This document shows, piece by piece, positions 3,936 through 13,412 of a DNA stretch of 13,412 bases. The stretch is from Candidatus Nanopelagicales bacterium (GTDB lineage Bacteria; Actinomycetota; Actinomycetes; S36-B12), in contig JAURQC010000040.1 in assembly GCA_030836325.1 (NCBI GenBank), positions 1 through 13,412 on the forward strand, in the 5' to 3' direction. A program made the position numbers and the translations under genes. Within the stretch, counting starts at the first letter, position 1; every line of letters begins with the position of its first letter. The notes under the pieces were generated by a model. The model ran no database searches and was not told the origin of the DNA. It worked only from the letters and a program-made list of their open reading frames with translations.

Positions 3936-4961
3936 TTAGCCGTCGGGGGATTTCGCGCGGCTTTGCAGAAGAGTCCGCAGACTTCCGCGAACCGCACGAA
4001 TACTCGATGGATCCGTCGTCACTGCGACGAGCAGGATCACGCCGATGTAGATCTGTTGGATGGGTACCTGAACACCTGAGATGGTCAAGGCGACCTGCAG
4101 GATTCCCAGCGATGCTGCACCGATCAAGGTTCCGACGATCGAGCCTCGGCCACCCTTGAGGTAGTTGCCACCGATGATCGCGGCAGCAAAACTCGCGAGC
4201 AGAACAGTCGATCCCGCCGTGGGATCGGCCGTTGTGCGCTCCAGCGTGTTGATCACCCCGGCGAGGGCCGAGACGAATCCCGAGATCATGAAGCCGGTGA
4301 AGATTCGGCGATTAACGGGGATACCGGCATCGCGCGCTGCTTGGCGGTTGCCACCAACGGCGAAGAATTCCCGGCCGGCCTTGACCCGCGAGACAAACAC
4401 CTGAATCGCGATGAAGACGAGGATGAAGATGATGATGCGTGGGGTCAGCGGCCCGAGCAATGGCTGACCGAAGGCAATGCCGGCGTCCTTATTCGCCAGG
4501 CTCACCGGCGCTTCATTCGACAGCACGAATGCCAACCCGCGCAGGGCGAACAGCGTGCCCAGCGTTGCGATGAACGAGTTGATCCCGATCACGGCAACAA
4601 AGAAGGCATTGATCACGCCCACGATCAGACCGGCGGCTAGACCCGCGATGATGCCCAAAGTCAGGTCGGGGATGCTGGCCATGATGACGCCGGCCACGGC
4701 AAGGGTGCTCGCCACGCTCAGGTCGAGTTCGCCCATCAAGATGACCGCTGTGAGGCCGAGGGCCACGATCCCGATAAGCGCAATGCGACCCAGAGTTACG
4801 TCGTAGGCAGTCAGTGCCAGCGGCTCGGTGAGGGCGACCACGACGATGATGAACGCCAGCAGCGCAACGCCGCGACCCTCGGTGCGTCGAGACGCGATGG
4901 TTCGGATTCGTCCCCACGTTCCGGTGGACGTATTGGTATCCAGGGAGATGGTCTGGCTCAT
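3936..4961 (-). CDS. ABC transporter permease, ribose/RbsC type (second of pair)
   Basis: A 341-residue polytopic membrane protein of the BPD_transp_2 family, with about 8-10 hydrophobic segments after a polar N-terminus of some 30 residues. Family marks are GELDLSVASTLAVAG (about residues 77-91), the cytoplasmic loop GREFFAVGGNRQAARDAGIPV that contacts the ATPase, and GGRGSIVGTLIG near the end. It pairs with the permease encoded just upstream to form a heterodimeric channel. Its ATG overlaps the stop of that gene (ATGA, 4958-4961), indicating translational coupling. The binding-protein gene follows after 64 bp. Confidence 0.93.
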   Translation of the reverse strand: MSQTISLDTNTSTGTWGRIRTIASRRTEGRGVALLAFIIVVVALTEPLALTAYDVTLGRIALIGIVALGLTAVILMGELDLSVASTLAVAGVIMASIPDLTLGIIAGLAAGLIVGVINAFFVAVIGINSFIATLGTLFALRGLAFVLSNEAPVSLANKDAGIAFGQPLLGPLTPRIIIFILVFIAIQVFVSRVKAGREFFAVGGNRQAARDAGIPVNRRIFTGFMISGFVSALAGVINTLERTTADPTAGSTVLLASFAAAIIGGNYLKGGRGSIVGTLIGAASLGILQVALTISGVQVPIQQIYIGVILLVAVTTDPSSIRAVRGSLRTLLQSRAKSPDG

Positions 4962-5962
4962 CGCTTGGCCACCTTCCTGGCCAGTGCGTCGAGGGAGACA
5001 GCCAAGACGATCAGCACTCCTAGAGCGACTTGTTGGTAGCCGAAGCTGATGCCGGACAGAACGAGGATGTTGGTCAGCACGCTGACGAAGATCACGCCGA
5101 GCAACGTGCGGTACACGCTCCCGCGACCACCGAAGACGCTGGTGCCGCCGACGATGATCGCGGCGAGGGCACGGAACTCGTATCCCACACCGTCGTTCGA
5201 GACTGCGGTGTTGGAGAAGGCCGCCAGGACGAAGCCGGCGATCATCGCTGCGATCGCGGTGACCAGGAAGGCACCAATGATCACGAGCGCGGTGTTGGTG
5301 CCACCGAGTCGGGTAGCGGACTCGTTCACGCCGAAGGATCGGACCAGGAATCCGAAGTTCGTTCGGTTGAGTAGCAGCCCGAGGATGATCGTCATGGCGA
5401 CAAGGACGAGCGCCGAGTAGGGGACCGGACCGATCTTGCCGAGTCCAAACGCCCTGATGGGGCCGTCGGGCGGACCGAAGAAGATCGATCCTCCTGAGAA
5501 GAAGCGCAATAGTCCAAGGCCGATGAACGTTGTCGAGAGCGTGACGATCACCGCGTTGGCCTTGAAGATGCCAACGGCTGTTCCGTTGACGAGTGCGAAG
5601 AGCAACGCAGCTGCCAGCGCGGCGAGGATCGCCAGGAAAAGACCGTGGCTGTTGCTGACGGCGATCAAGATGACGCCGGCGGTAGCAACCTGGGCCACGA
5701 CCGACAGGTCGAGGTAGTTGCCGCTAATGACCACAAAGGTCATGCCGACAGCCACGATGCCGATCGGAGCGGCGCGGTGGAAGACGTCGGTGATGTTGAA
5801 CAAAGAGCCGAAGCCGTCGACGAAGAGTAGGGCGAACAAGATGAGAACGGCGGTGAAGATGAAGATGCCGTTCTGGGAGATCCAGGTGAGGATGCCGGCA
5901 AGCCTGCTGGCCTCGGTGGTCCCCGTTGTTGCCGCGGGTGCGGGTGTTGTTTGCTGTGACAT
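4958..5962 (-). CDS. ABC transporter permease, ribose/RbsC type (first of pair)
   Basis: A 334-residue membrane protein of the same BPD_transp_2 family as the next gene. It has a short Thr/Ala-rich N-terminus, about 8-10 hydrophobic segments, the signature ISGNYLDLSVVAQVATAG, the ATPase-contact loop FLVRSFGVNESATRLGGTN, and GGTSVFGGRGSVYRTLLG near the C-terminus. Two different permeases plus one double ATPase is the usual make-up of many actinobacterial and rhizobial CUT2 importers for pentoses, polyols and sugar derivatives. The start overlaps the ATPase stop by one base (5962), and the end overlaps the next permease by 4 bp, so the genes form one transcript. Confidence 0.93.
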   Translation of the reverse strand: MSQQTTPAPAATTGTTEASRLAGILTWISQNGIFIFTAVLILFALLFVDGFGSLFNITDVFHRAAPIGIVAVGMTFVVISGNYLDLSVVAQVATAGVILIAVSNSHGLFLAILAALAAALLFALVNGTAVGIFKANAVIVTLSTTFIGLGLLRFFSGGSIFFGPPDGPIRAFGLGKIGPVPYSALVLVAMTIILGLLLNRTNFGFLVRSFGVNESATRLGGTNTALVIIGAFLVTAIAAMIAGFVLAAFSNTAVSNDGVGYEFRALAAIIVGGTSVFGGRGSVYRTLLGVIFVSVLTNILVLSGISFGYQQVALGVLIVLAVSLDALARKVAKR

Positions 5963-7479
5963 CAGGCAACCACTTCCGCTTCGCCGGCGGCGAGGGACAT
6001 GACCGATTGTTCGGATGCCTCTTCGCGGGTGAGAGTTCCGGTTATTCGTCCGTCACGCATGACATGAATGACGTCGGAGAGTTCGAGTAGTTCGGGAAGG
6101 TCGGAACTGACGACGAGTACGGCAGTGCCGTTGTCGGCCATTTCCTTGACGAGTCGGTGGATCTCGGTCTTGGCACCGACGTCCACACCGCGGGTGGGCT
6201 CATCGAGCACCATGAAGTCGGGCTTTCGTCCCAGCCACTTGGCGACTACGACCTTCTGCTGGTTACCACCGCTGTACTGACCGGCCTCGCGCTGGATCTC
6301 CGGCGGCCGGAGTCCGACCTTGTCGGCCAGTGACTGCGCAAATTCGGTGATCATCCGCGAGGCTTTGAACCCGAATCGGCTCAATTGCTGGCGGTTGGGA
6401 AGTCGGATGTTGTCCGAGACGCTCATGATGAGAGCGAGGCCGTCAGTGCGACGTTCCTCGGGCACGTAGCCGACGCCATTGCGAACCGCGGATGTGTAAC
6501 TCGACAAGGTCACGGTCTTGCCGTTGCGAGTCAAGGTCACGCGACCGGAGGTGCGGGTGTCGGCGCCGATGATGGCGCGAACGAGTTCTGAGCGGCCGGC
6601 TCCGACGAGTCCACCAAGGCCCACGATCTCGCCGGCACGAACCTCGAGGCTGACGTTGTTCACTCGGGGTGCAGTGATGTCCCGTGCGCTGAGGACAACG
6701 TCGCCGGGGTTCGCCACGCGGTGCGATTCGAGGTCCTTCTTGAGTTCCCGGCCCACCATGCTGTCGATCACTTCTTGCGGAGTGAGGTCCTCGATCGGCG
6801 CGCTGAGCACCTGCTTGCCGTCTCGCAGGATGGTCACATTCGAGGAAATCTCGAATACTTCTGGGATGCGGTGCGAGATGTAGGCGATGGCCATCCCCCC
6901 TGCCGCGAGGCGCTGGAGCATCCGCAGCAGGTAGTCGGTTTCCGCGGGGGTCAAGGTGGCGGTCGGCTCGTCGAGGATGAGCACCCTGGGTTGCCGAGCC
7001 ACCGCTCGGGCGATTTCCACGAACTGGCGGAGGGCTACCGAGAGCCGCGAGACGCGCTCGTCGAGGTCGACCGAGACGCCGATCTCCGCGAGTGCGGCTG
7101 CGGCGATCTCTTTAAGCTCCTTGTATTTGGTAAACCCGAAGGTGGTGGGGAAGGCCCCGAGCAGGATGTTCTCGGCGACGGTCATCTCTGGAACGAGGCT
7201 CAGCTCTTGGTGGACGAGGGCGATCCCGGCGTCTATAGCCGACCTCGTTCCCGGTTCCACCTGCTCGCCGTAGACCATCACCGAGCCGCTGTCGGCCTCG
7301 ATGATGCCGGCCATGACCCTCATGAGGGTCGACTTGCCCGCGCCGTTTTCACCGACGATCGAATGGATTTCTCCAGGGGCGATTTTCAAGGAGACATCGT
7401 CGACGGCGAGTGCCCCTCCGAAGCGCTTGACTATGTGGGATGCCTCGATGGCGATCCCGGTGTTGCCCGATTGGCCCAC
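5962..7479 (-). CDS. Sugar ABC transporter ATP-binding protein, two fused ABC domains (RbsA/MglA type)
   Basis: With GTG 7479 as start the protein has 505 residues and two tandem ABC domains. Domain 1: Walker A GENGAGKST (43-51), Q-loop HQE (90-92), degenerate signature LSVALRQ, Walker B LILDEPT (167-173). Domain 2: degenerate Walker A GLVGAGRSE (290-298), a full signature YSGGNQQK (402-409), Walker B VLDEPT (424-429), and SSD in place of the switch His. This asymmetry is normal for the RbsA/MglA family. The frame is open to an ATG at 7512, but only the GTG at 7479 has a good Shine-Dalgarno (GGGAG, 6 nt away), so it is preferred. It is the first gene of the importer operon and energises the two permeases encoded next. 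Confidence 0.94.
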   Translation of the reverse strand: MGQSGNTGIAIEASHIVKRFGGALAVDDVSLKIAPGEIHSIVGENGAGKSTLMRVMAGIIEADSGSVMVYGEQVEPGTRSAIDAGIALVHQELSLVPEMTVAENILLGAFPTTFGFTKYKELKEIAAAALAEIGVSVDLDERVSRLSVALRQFVEIARAVARQPRVLILDEPTATLTPAETDYLLRMLQRLAAGGMAIAYISHRIPEVFEISSNVTILRDGKQVLSAPIEDLTPQEVIDSMVGRELKKDLESHRVANPGDVVLSARDITAPRVNNVSLEVRAGEIVGLGGLVGAGRSELVRAIIGADTRTSGRVTLTRNGKTVTLSSYTSAVRNGVGYVPEERRTDGLALIMSVSDNIRLPNRQQLSRFGFKASRMITEFAQSLADKVGLRPPEIQREAGQYSGGNQQKVVVAKWLGRKPDFMVLDEPTRGVDVGAKTEIHRLVKEMADNGTAVLVVSSDLPELLELSDVIHVMRDGRITGTLTREEASEQSVMSLAAGEAEVVA

Positions 7480-11421: not shown

Positions 11422-11484
11422 GCACGCGCCAGTCGATCTCCCACGAGGTGATGCCCACCGAGCCGGGGTGTGTCAAGGGCAGGT

Positions 11485-11500
11485 ATCTTGACGTCAAGAT
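11485..11500. promoter_or_regulatory. Perfect 16-bp palindrome upstream of mdh
   Basis: ATCTTGACGTCAAGAT reads the same on both strands. It ends 29 bp before the mdh start, in a 108-bp gap between genes. It contains TTGAC, a possible -35 core, and CAAGAT, a possible -10 with TGTCAA 18 bp upstream, so a dimeric regulator bound here would overlap the mdh promoter either way. Which regulator binds is unknown. Confidence 0.6.
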
Positions 11501-11529
11501 TTCTTCCCCCAGATACCGAAGGGTGCGCA

Positions 11530-12486
11530 ATGGCTCGCAGTGGCAAGGTGACGGTGGTCGGGGCCGGTTTCTACGGCTCAACGACTGCGCTTCGACTGGC
11601 TGAATACGACATTTTCGAGACCGTCGTCTTGACCGACGTGGTCGATGGCAAGGCTGAAGGGCTCGCGCTGGACATGAATCAGTCGCGCTGGGTCGAGGGC
11701 TTCGAAACCAAGCTGGTGGGCCAGACCACCGGTCCCAACGGTGAGGGCTACGAGGCGATCGCCGGATCGGAGATCGTGATCATCACCGCCGGCCTGCCGC
11801 GCAAGCCCGGGATGAGCCGCATGGACCTCATCGAGACCAACGCCAAGATCATGCGTCAGGTCGCCGAGAACGTCGCGAAGTACGCACCGGAATGCGTGGT
11901 TATCAACGTGGCCAACCCGCTCGATGAGATGACCGCTCTGGCGCAAATCGTCACCGGCTTCCCGCACAACCGAGTTCTGGGCCAGGCAGGCATGCTCGAC
12001 ACCGCGCGGTTCACGCACTTTGTGGCCGAGGAGCTGGGCGTTCCGGTTGGCTCGGTGAAGACCCTGACCCTCGGTTCGCACGGCGACACCATGGTTCCGG
12101 TCGCCTCGGTCTGCGCGGTCGATGGCAAGCCGCTGACCGAGTTGGTCTCGGCCGAGAAGATTGATGAGCTCGTTGAGCGCACCCGCAATGGTGGTGCGGA
12201 GATCGTGGCACTGCTGAAGACCGGATCGGCGTATTACGCCCCGTCCGCAGCAGCAGCTCGTATGGCCCGTGCAGTGCATGAGGATTCCGGCGCCGTGATG
12301 CCGGTCTGCGCCTGGGTTGATGGCGAGTACGGGCTATCCGGTGCTTACCTCGGTGTCGAGGCCGAGATCGGCAAGGAAGGCATCCGCAAGGTGGTCGAAA
12401 CCCCGATGACCGACGATGAAAAAGCCCTGCTCGCCGAGGCCTACGAGGCCGTCAAGGCTAAGCAGGCCGACGTCAAGGATCTGTGA
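11530..12486 (+). CDS. mdh: Malate dehydrogenase (NAD-dependent, LDH-like type)
   Basis: A 318-residue enzyme of the TCA cycle, malate + NAD+ to oxaloacetate + NADH. Rossmann loop GAGFYGST (11-18) and Asp36 after strand 2 (NAD specificity); substrate arginines Arg91 and Arg97 (LPRKPGMSR), the first being the residue that marks malate rather than lactate dehydrogenases; Asn129 (NVANPLD), Arg160 (LDTAR) with Asp157, and catalytic His184 (GSHGDTMVP). ATG 11530 is chosen over the in-frame ATG at 11470 because GAAGGG lies just before it and the Rossmann strand begins at once. The gene ends 8 bp before icd, and the TGAGG spanning its stop codon supplies the icd ribosome binding site. The palindrome at 11485-11500 suggests its own regulated promoter. 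Confidence 0.97.
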
Positions 12487-12494
12487 GGAAACCA

Positions 12495-13292
12495 ATGGCC
12501 AAGATCAAGGTAGAGAACCCCGTCGTCGAACTCGACGGCGATGAGATGACCCGCATTATCTGGCAGTTCATCAAGGACGAGTTGATCCTCAAGTACCTAG
12601 ACGTCGATCTGAAGTACTACGACCTCAGCGTCGAGTACCGCGATGAGACCGACGACCAGGTGACGATCGACGCCGCACACGCTATACAGCAGTACGGCGT
12701 GGGTGTGAAGTGCGCGACCATCACCCCGGATGAGGCACGCGTCGAGGAGTTCGGCCTGAAGAAGATGTGGCGTTCACCGAACGGCACCATCCGCAACATT
12801 CTCGGTGGCGTGATCTTCCGCGAACCCATCATCATCGACAACATCCCGCGTTTGGTTCCCACATGGACCAAGCCGATTATCGTCGGCCGTCACGCCTTTG
12901 GTGATCAGTACCGCGCTACCGACTTCAAGGTTGAGAAGGCCGGCACGCTGACTATGACCTTCACGCCTGAAGACGGCTCCGAACCGATGGAGTTCAACGT
13001 CTTCGACTTCCCGGCCGGCGGTGTCGCTATGGGTATGTACAACCTCGACGAGTCGATCCGGGACTTTGCTCGTGCGTCGTTCCGCTATGGACTCGCTCGG
13101 AACTACCCGGTGTACATGTCCACGAAGAACACGATCCTGAAGGCCTATGACGGTCGCTTCAAGGATCTGTTCGCTGAGGTCTTCGACGCCGAGTTCAAGG
13201 ATGAATTCGAGAGGGCCGGCATCACCTACGAGCACCGCTTGATTGACGACATGGTCGCCGCGGCGCTGAAGTGGGAGGGCGGCTACGTCTGA
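12495..13292 (+). CDS. icd: Isocitrate dehydrogenase (NADP), interrupted by an in-frame TGA
   Basis: The first 265 codons of a dimeric, eukaryote-like NADP-isocitrate dehydrogenase (family length about 400-410; converts isocitrate to 2-oxoglutarate, CO2 and NADPH). The substrate loop SPNGTIRN (94-101), Arg109, [14 protein letters not shown] (131-144) and LIDDMV with metal ligand Asp251 are intact. Translation then meets TGA (13290-13292) at position 266, where the family has Trp ([13 protein letters not shown]). A protein ending here lacks the other two metal Asp residues and the whole NADP site, so it would be inactive. The start is ATG 12495, with TGAGGAAACC before it; a GTG at 12483 overlaps the mdh stop and is less likely. 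The gene is coupled to mdh, 8 bp apart. Confidence 0.9.
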
Positions 13293-13412
13293 GCTTGCAA
13301 GAACTACGACGGCGACGTCCAGTCCGACACCGTCGCCCAAGGCTTCGGCTCACTGGGTCTGATGACCTCAGTTCTCATGACCCCGGACGGCAAGACCGTC
13401 GAGGCCGAGGCC
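13293..13412 (+). pseudogene. icd: Continuation of icd after the internal stop, running off the right edge
   Basis: In the same frame as icd, 40 codons are open from the base after TGA to the window end. They spell conserved IDH sequence ([19 protein letters not shown], then a stretch ending in TVEAEA), including Asp274 and Asp278, which match the metal ligands Asp275 and Asp279 of human IDH1. There is no insertion or deletion and no decay; one base (TGA for TGG) breaks the gene. The rest of the gene lies beyond the window. Treated as one unit, icd runs 12495 to beyond 13412. Confidence 0.85.

Follow-up and report, generated by a model that had tools for sequence, protein, structure and literature searches.

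The gene for NADP-dependent isocitrate dehydrogenase (icd) at the end of the window, i.e., the whole 13,412-nucleotide stretch of DNA that was analysed, is interrupted by one in-frame TGA at a codon that specifies Trp in its relatives. The most economical reading of this TGA, to which we give a probability of roughly 0.6, is that one base of the assembly is in error. The organism would then carry a normal, working icd, and the consensus would hold a single wrong base, arising from sequencing, low coverage or the assembly path. We infer that the base is wrong because (i) a single base change separates the TGA from the Trp codon of the relatives, (ii) nothing but the TGA is damaged across the 306 icd codons present, (iii) the genetic code of the organism is normal, and (iv) lone stops also occur in icd genes in draft genomes of relatives. 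The main rival, a genuine and very recent nonsense mutation in the strain, is a possibility to be taken seriously; readthrough of UGA at this one codon is improbable. The sequence-only reading had arrived at the same three choices, and its list proves to be the right one.

Table 1 Coordinates of the icd gene, its in-frame TGA and the upstream mdh gene in the window.
Feature	Position	Strand	Remarks
mdh, LDH-like malate dehydrogenase	11530..12486	+	Intact, ends in TGA; NCBIfam TIGR01763.1, 352.8 bits, cut-off 351.85
icd, NADP-dependent isocitrate dehydrogenase	12495..13412	+	Truncated at the window edge after 306 of about 404 codons
In-frame TGA, codon 266	13290..13292	+	Trp position in relatives
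40 codons 3' of the TGA, open and conserved	13293..13412	+	Codon comparison with L081

The interrupted icd frame

The icd frame starts at 12495, meets the TGA at codon 266 and then stays open for 40 codons up to the edge at 13412; a frame of this kind, with the TGA at 13290-13292, had been described earlier, and we read the same in the sequence. Residues 1-265 correspond to positions 1-264 of the 403 in the NCBIfam profile PRK08299.1 and score 499.2 bits (the cut-off is 335), which places the protein among the NADP-dependent enzymes on its first 265 residues alone. Where that family has an uninterrupted frame of about 404 codons, the window icd has one TGA at codon 266, with about 98 more codons lying outside the window. 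A frameshift is ruled out, as the identical frame runs on past the TGA.

The 120 homologues listed are mostly 404-405 residues long and, among the matches listed, at most 96% identical to the window icd; the 119 of them with at least 400 residues were aligned. The column of codon 266 holds Trp in 118 of these full-length proteins and Gly in one (P0014), which bears out the claim that the TGA occupies a conserved Trp position. Five icd columns share the residue of the window with at most three of the 119 homologues: four are variable columns, and the fifth is codon 266. At the DNA level, Trp is encoded by TGG at all 64 loci where the motif matched (80 loci were searched, and the 16 without a motif match were left out of the count). 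Among the 12 nearest loci, TGG stands in 11 of the 11 that matched, L002 being unmatched. The TGA allele is seen at none of these loci, which argues against a nonsense mutation and, since the relatives have an ordinary Trp codon here, against readthrough as well.

A phmmer alignment sets query residue 265 opposite residue 266 of 1t09_A, the chain of a cytoplasmic IDH that we take to be human IDH1, so that the lost residue corresponds to Trp267. The metal-binding residues Asp275 and Asp279, together with residues of the NADP site, presumably lie downstream of the TGA position.

Among the genomes compared, the nearest relative of the window is G046 (locus L081), whose icd protein is 97% identical and whose DNA is 87% identical over 11482-13412. 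Against L081, the 265 codons 5' of the TGA show 79 silent and 10 replacement differences, and the 40 codons 3' of it show 9 silent and 0 replacement differences. The same comparison with nine of eleven relatives (L003 and L004 were lost, the start motif having no match) gave no more than one replacement 3' of the TGA in each case. Purifying selection persists 3' of the TGA. Neither further decay nor relaxed selection, the marks of a pseudogene, is seen, although a very young pseudogene would look alike. The relatives that carry names are mostly metagenome-derived, and include Actinomycetota bacterium, Micrococcales bacterium and Candidatus Nanopelagicales bacterium, among others.

A 303-residue homologue, P0001, follows the IDH family up to residue 263 and then continues into unrelated residues; it probably stems from a chimeric contig.

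Lone stops in draft genomes and a probable consensus error

Among the best 150 icd matches listed for the order, two have a lone in-frame stop, a TGA in G022 (contig C64) and a TAG in G121 (contig C31). Like the window, each has one stop in a gene that is conserved and otherwise recognisable. In G022, the TGA lies two codons after the position of codon 266 and about 200 bases from the contig end. A second G022 contig overlaps the stop-bearing one over 331 bases with 7 mismatches, and it has an open frame with the codon intact. Four of the seven differences, the stop included, change the product, a share far above the silent-to-replacement ratios of 79:10 and 9:0 found between the window and L081. 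Such a share would fit an error better than strain variation, and on this comparison the G022 stop is more likely to be an error; both contigs end within the overlap, the intact copy is thus also near a contig end, and it is by conservation that one copy is judged to be wrong. In G121, the TAG occupies a Lys position and falls at base 772 of a contig of 5,150 bases, not near its end; the gene is otherwise intact.

These lone stops in two drafts of the order, in one case with an intact overlapping contig, shift some weight towards an error in the window. The parallel has its differences, however. The G022 stop sits two codons further on and is accompanied by other product-changing differences and by an intact overlapping contig, whereas in the window no other error is apparent in the 40 codons that follow the TGA. 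The G121 stop is at a Lys position in the interior of its contig, and an interior position does not speak for an error. Lone stops are also not common, given that none was flagged among the icd matches listed for a sample of the class (a match in 224 of 394 genomes) or among the mdh matches listed for the order (a match in 144 of 166 genomes). Finally, nonsense codons also arise easily from Trp codons in nature.

We dropped the idea of a sequence-specific error hot spot at codon 266, which had been suggested by the Gly of P0014 and by the G022 stop two codons further on: 37 lone substitutions at conserved columns are spread along the protein, and one of them falls at this codon.

The mdh protein of the window is identical to P0241, which is present on three contigs, the longest of 158,395 bases; the window could thus be part of a longer contig. 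For the substrate-binding protein of the window, the best match, P0121, is 99% identical and is encoded on a contig of 18,406 bases. If the TGA is an error, it serves as a reminder that a lone stop in an otherwise perfect housekeeping gene of a draft genome needs a read check before it is called gene loss.

A possible recent nonsense mutation

In a single sequence, an error and a recent nonsense mutation look the same. Were the mutation genuine, translation would end after residue 265 and the product, without the rest of the active site, would be inactive; the cell would survive on external glutamate or 2-oxoglutarate, or would be disappearing from the population. One base change from the Trp codon is enough for such a mutation, and Shulgina and Eddy (PMC8629427), on yeast pseudogenes, regard single transitions from UGG as a probable origin of in-frame stops. 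The lack of any other damage would fit an age too young for decay. On the other hand, a consensus contig would be expected to carry the majority allele, and a null allele of icd should be rare. We hold a nonsense mutation to be possible, and the strongest competitor of a consensus error.

The distribution of icd in relatives bears on this rival from both sides. In the order, 151 of 166 genomes have an icd match, a single one in 129 of the 151; the 15 genomes without a match, drawn from a set whose completeness is not given, favour a genuine mutation. In the family of G001, a match is found in 76 of 85 genomes and is the only one in 67 of the 76. Monomeric IDH (PF03971), by contrast, has no match in any of these 85 family genomes, which are relatives of the window's genome and of completeness not given; among 14 control genomes, Corynebacterium glutamicum matched. 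This result argues against a nonsense mutation, and with it a back-up monomeric IDH was rejected. The earlier suggestion that a broken icd might go along with another IDH or with rewiring of the TCA cycle thus finds little support in the relatives, most of which have a single icd.

Among the second icd matches that were examined, the one in G022 is the overlapping contig of the same gene described above, and those in two other genomes are partial. That of G001 covers residues 1-150, is 84% identical to the query and lies at a contig end. That of G072 (L093, at the end of contig C175) covers residues 138-403 and is about 73% identical to P0002, and G072 also has a full-length icd. Both partial matches may represent contamination or second copies. 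The sequence pattern around the TGA had 0 matches in viral_contigs.

We also considered whether close relatives might be devoid of icd, given that no listed homologue is more than 96% identical. This idea was dropped: the 97%-identical icd of G046 is not evident among the homologues listed either, so absence from them says little.

Readthrough and the genetic code

Readthrough at the one codon is far less probable than either an error or a nonsense mutation. The UGA at codon 266 would here be read as Trp and full-length IDH would be made, perhaps at a reduced dose, in agreement with a TGA at a Trp position and a downstream frame that looks selected. Altered tRNA-Trp gives UGA readthrough in E. 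coli, and features that favour it are named in PMC13092985; we looked for a UCA anticodon, a 4-bp anticodon stem, A9C or G24A. The tRNA-Trp was sought in ten related genomes by a sequence pattern, and the nine exact matches were read, G040 having no exact match. Each of the nine genomes has one tRNA-Trp, with anticodon CCA, a 5-bp anticodon stem, A9 and G24. None of the altered features is therefore seen in nine of the ten genomes searched, which weighs against readthrough, as does a search of the window in which every Rfam family stayed below its gathering score. The latter result also led us to discard selenocysteine or a known RNA element, the column being Trp and not Cys in relatives.

It is more doubtful still that the dose of this central TCA-cycle enzyme is set by UGA-to-Trp readthrough, programmed or leaky, in an actinobacterium whose code is normal. 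A literature search returned no paper matching Nanopelagicales with isocitrate dehydrogenase. If the TGA were both real and read through, it would represent a rare instance of a core metabolic enzyme being recoded at one specific codon.

The window itself attests to normal use of the code. The 13 other open reading frames taken as genes contain 42 TGG codons and 0 internal stops, in line with the claim that Trp is written TGG throughout, and they end in TAG (6), TAA (4) or TGA (3). As had been stated, TGA is a true stop here, ending mdh (12484-12486), an ATPase gene (5962-5964) and one permease gene (4958-4960). An organism with reassigned UGA should show several in-frame TGA codons and no genes ending in TGA, and the window shows neither. 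Its GC content is 61.6%, whereas bacterial UGA reassignments occur mostly at very low GC (PMC8629427). A genome-wide code in which UGA means Trp would account for the icd TGA falling at a Trp position, but the stops used and the number of TGG codons in the window rule it out for practical purposes, and with the ordinary tRNA-Trp of nine relatives they uphold the earlier judgement that a general UGA-to-Trp code is unlikely.

Neighbouring genes

Directly upstream of icd, two kinds of mdh occur within one bacterial family. The window has the LDH-like kind (TIGR01763), as do many relatives, judging by their similarity to the window mdh; in G024 and G033 (L087:425-1414; L088:472-1467), a classic MDH (TIGR01759) occupies the corresponding site. 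The presence of both kinds at one site looks like in-place replacement.

Elsewhere in the window, an M24-type protein encoded at 1389-2654 on the minus strand scores 119.9 bits against the model of the DMSP lyase DddP, for which the cut-off is 600. Its gene is surrounded by those for a sugar-type ABC transporter, a glyoxalase-like protein, cupin proteins and an SDR, and this stretch is perhaps a candidate catabolic cluster.
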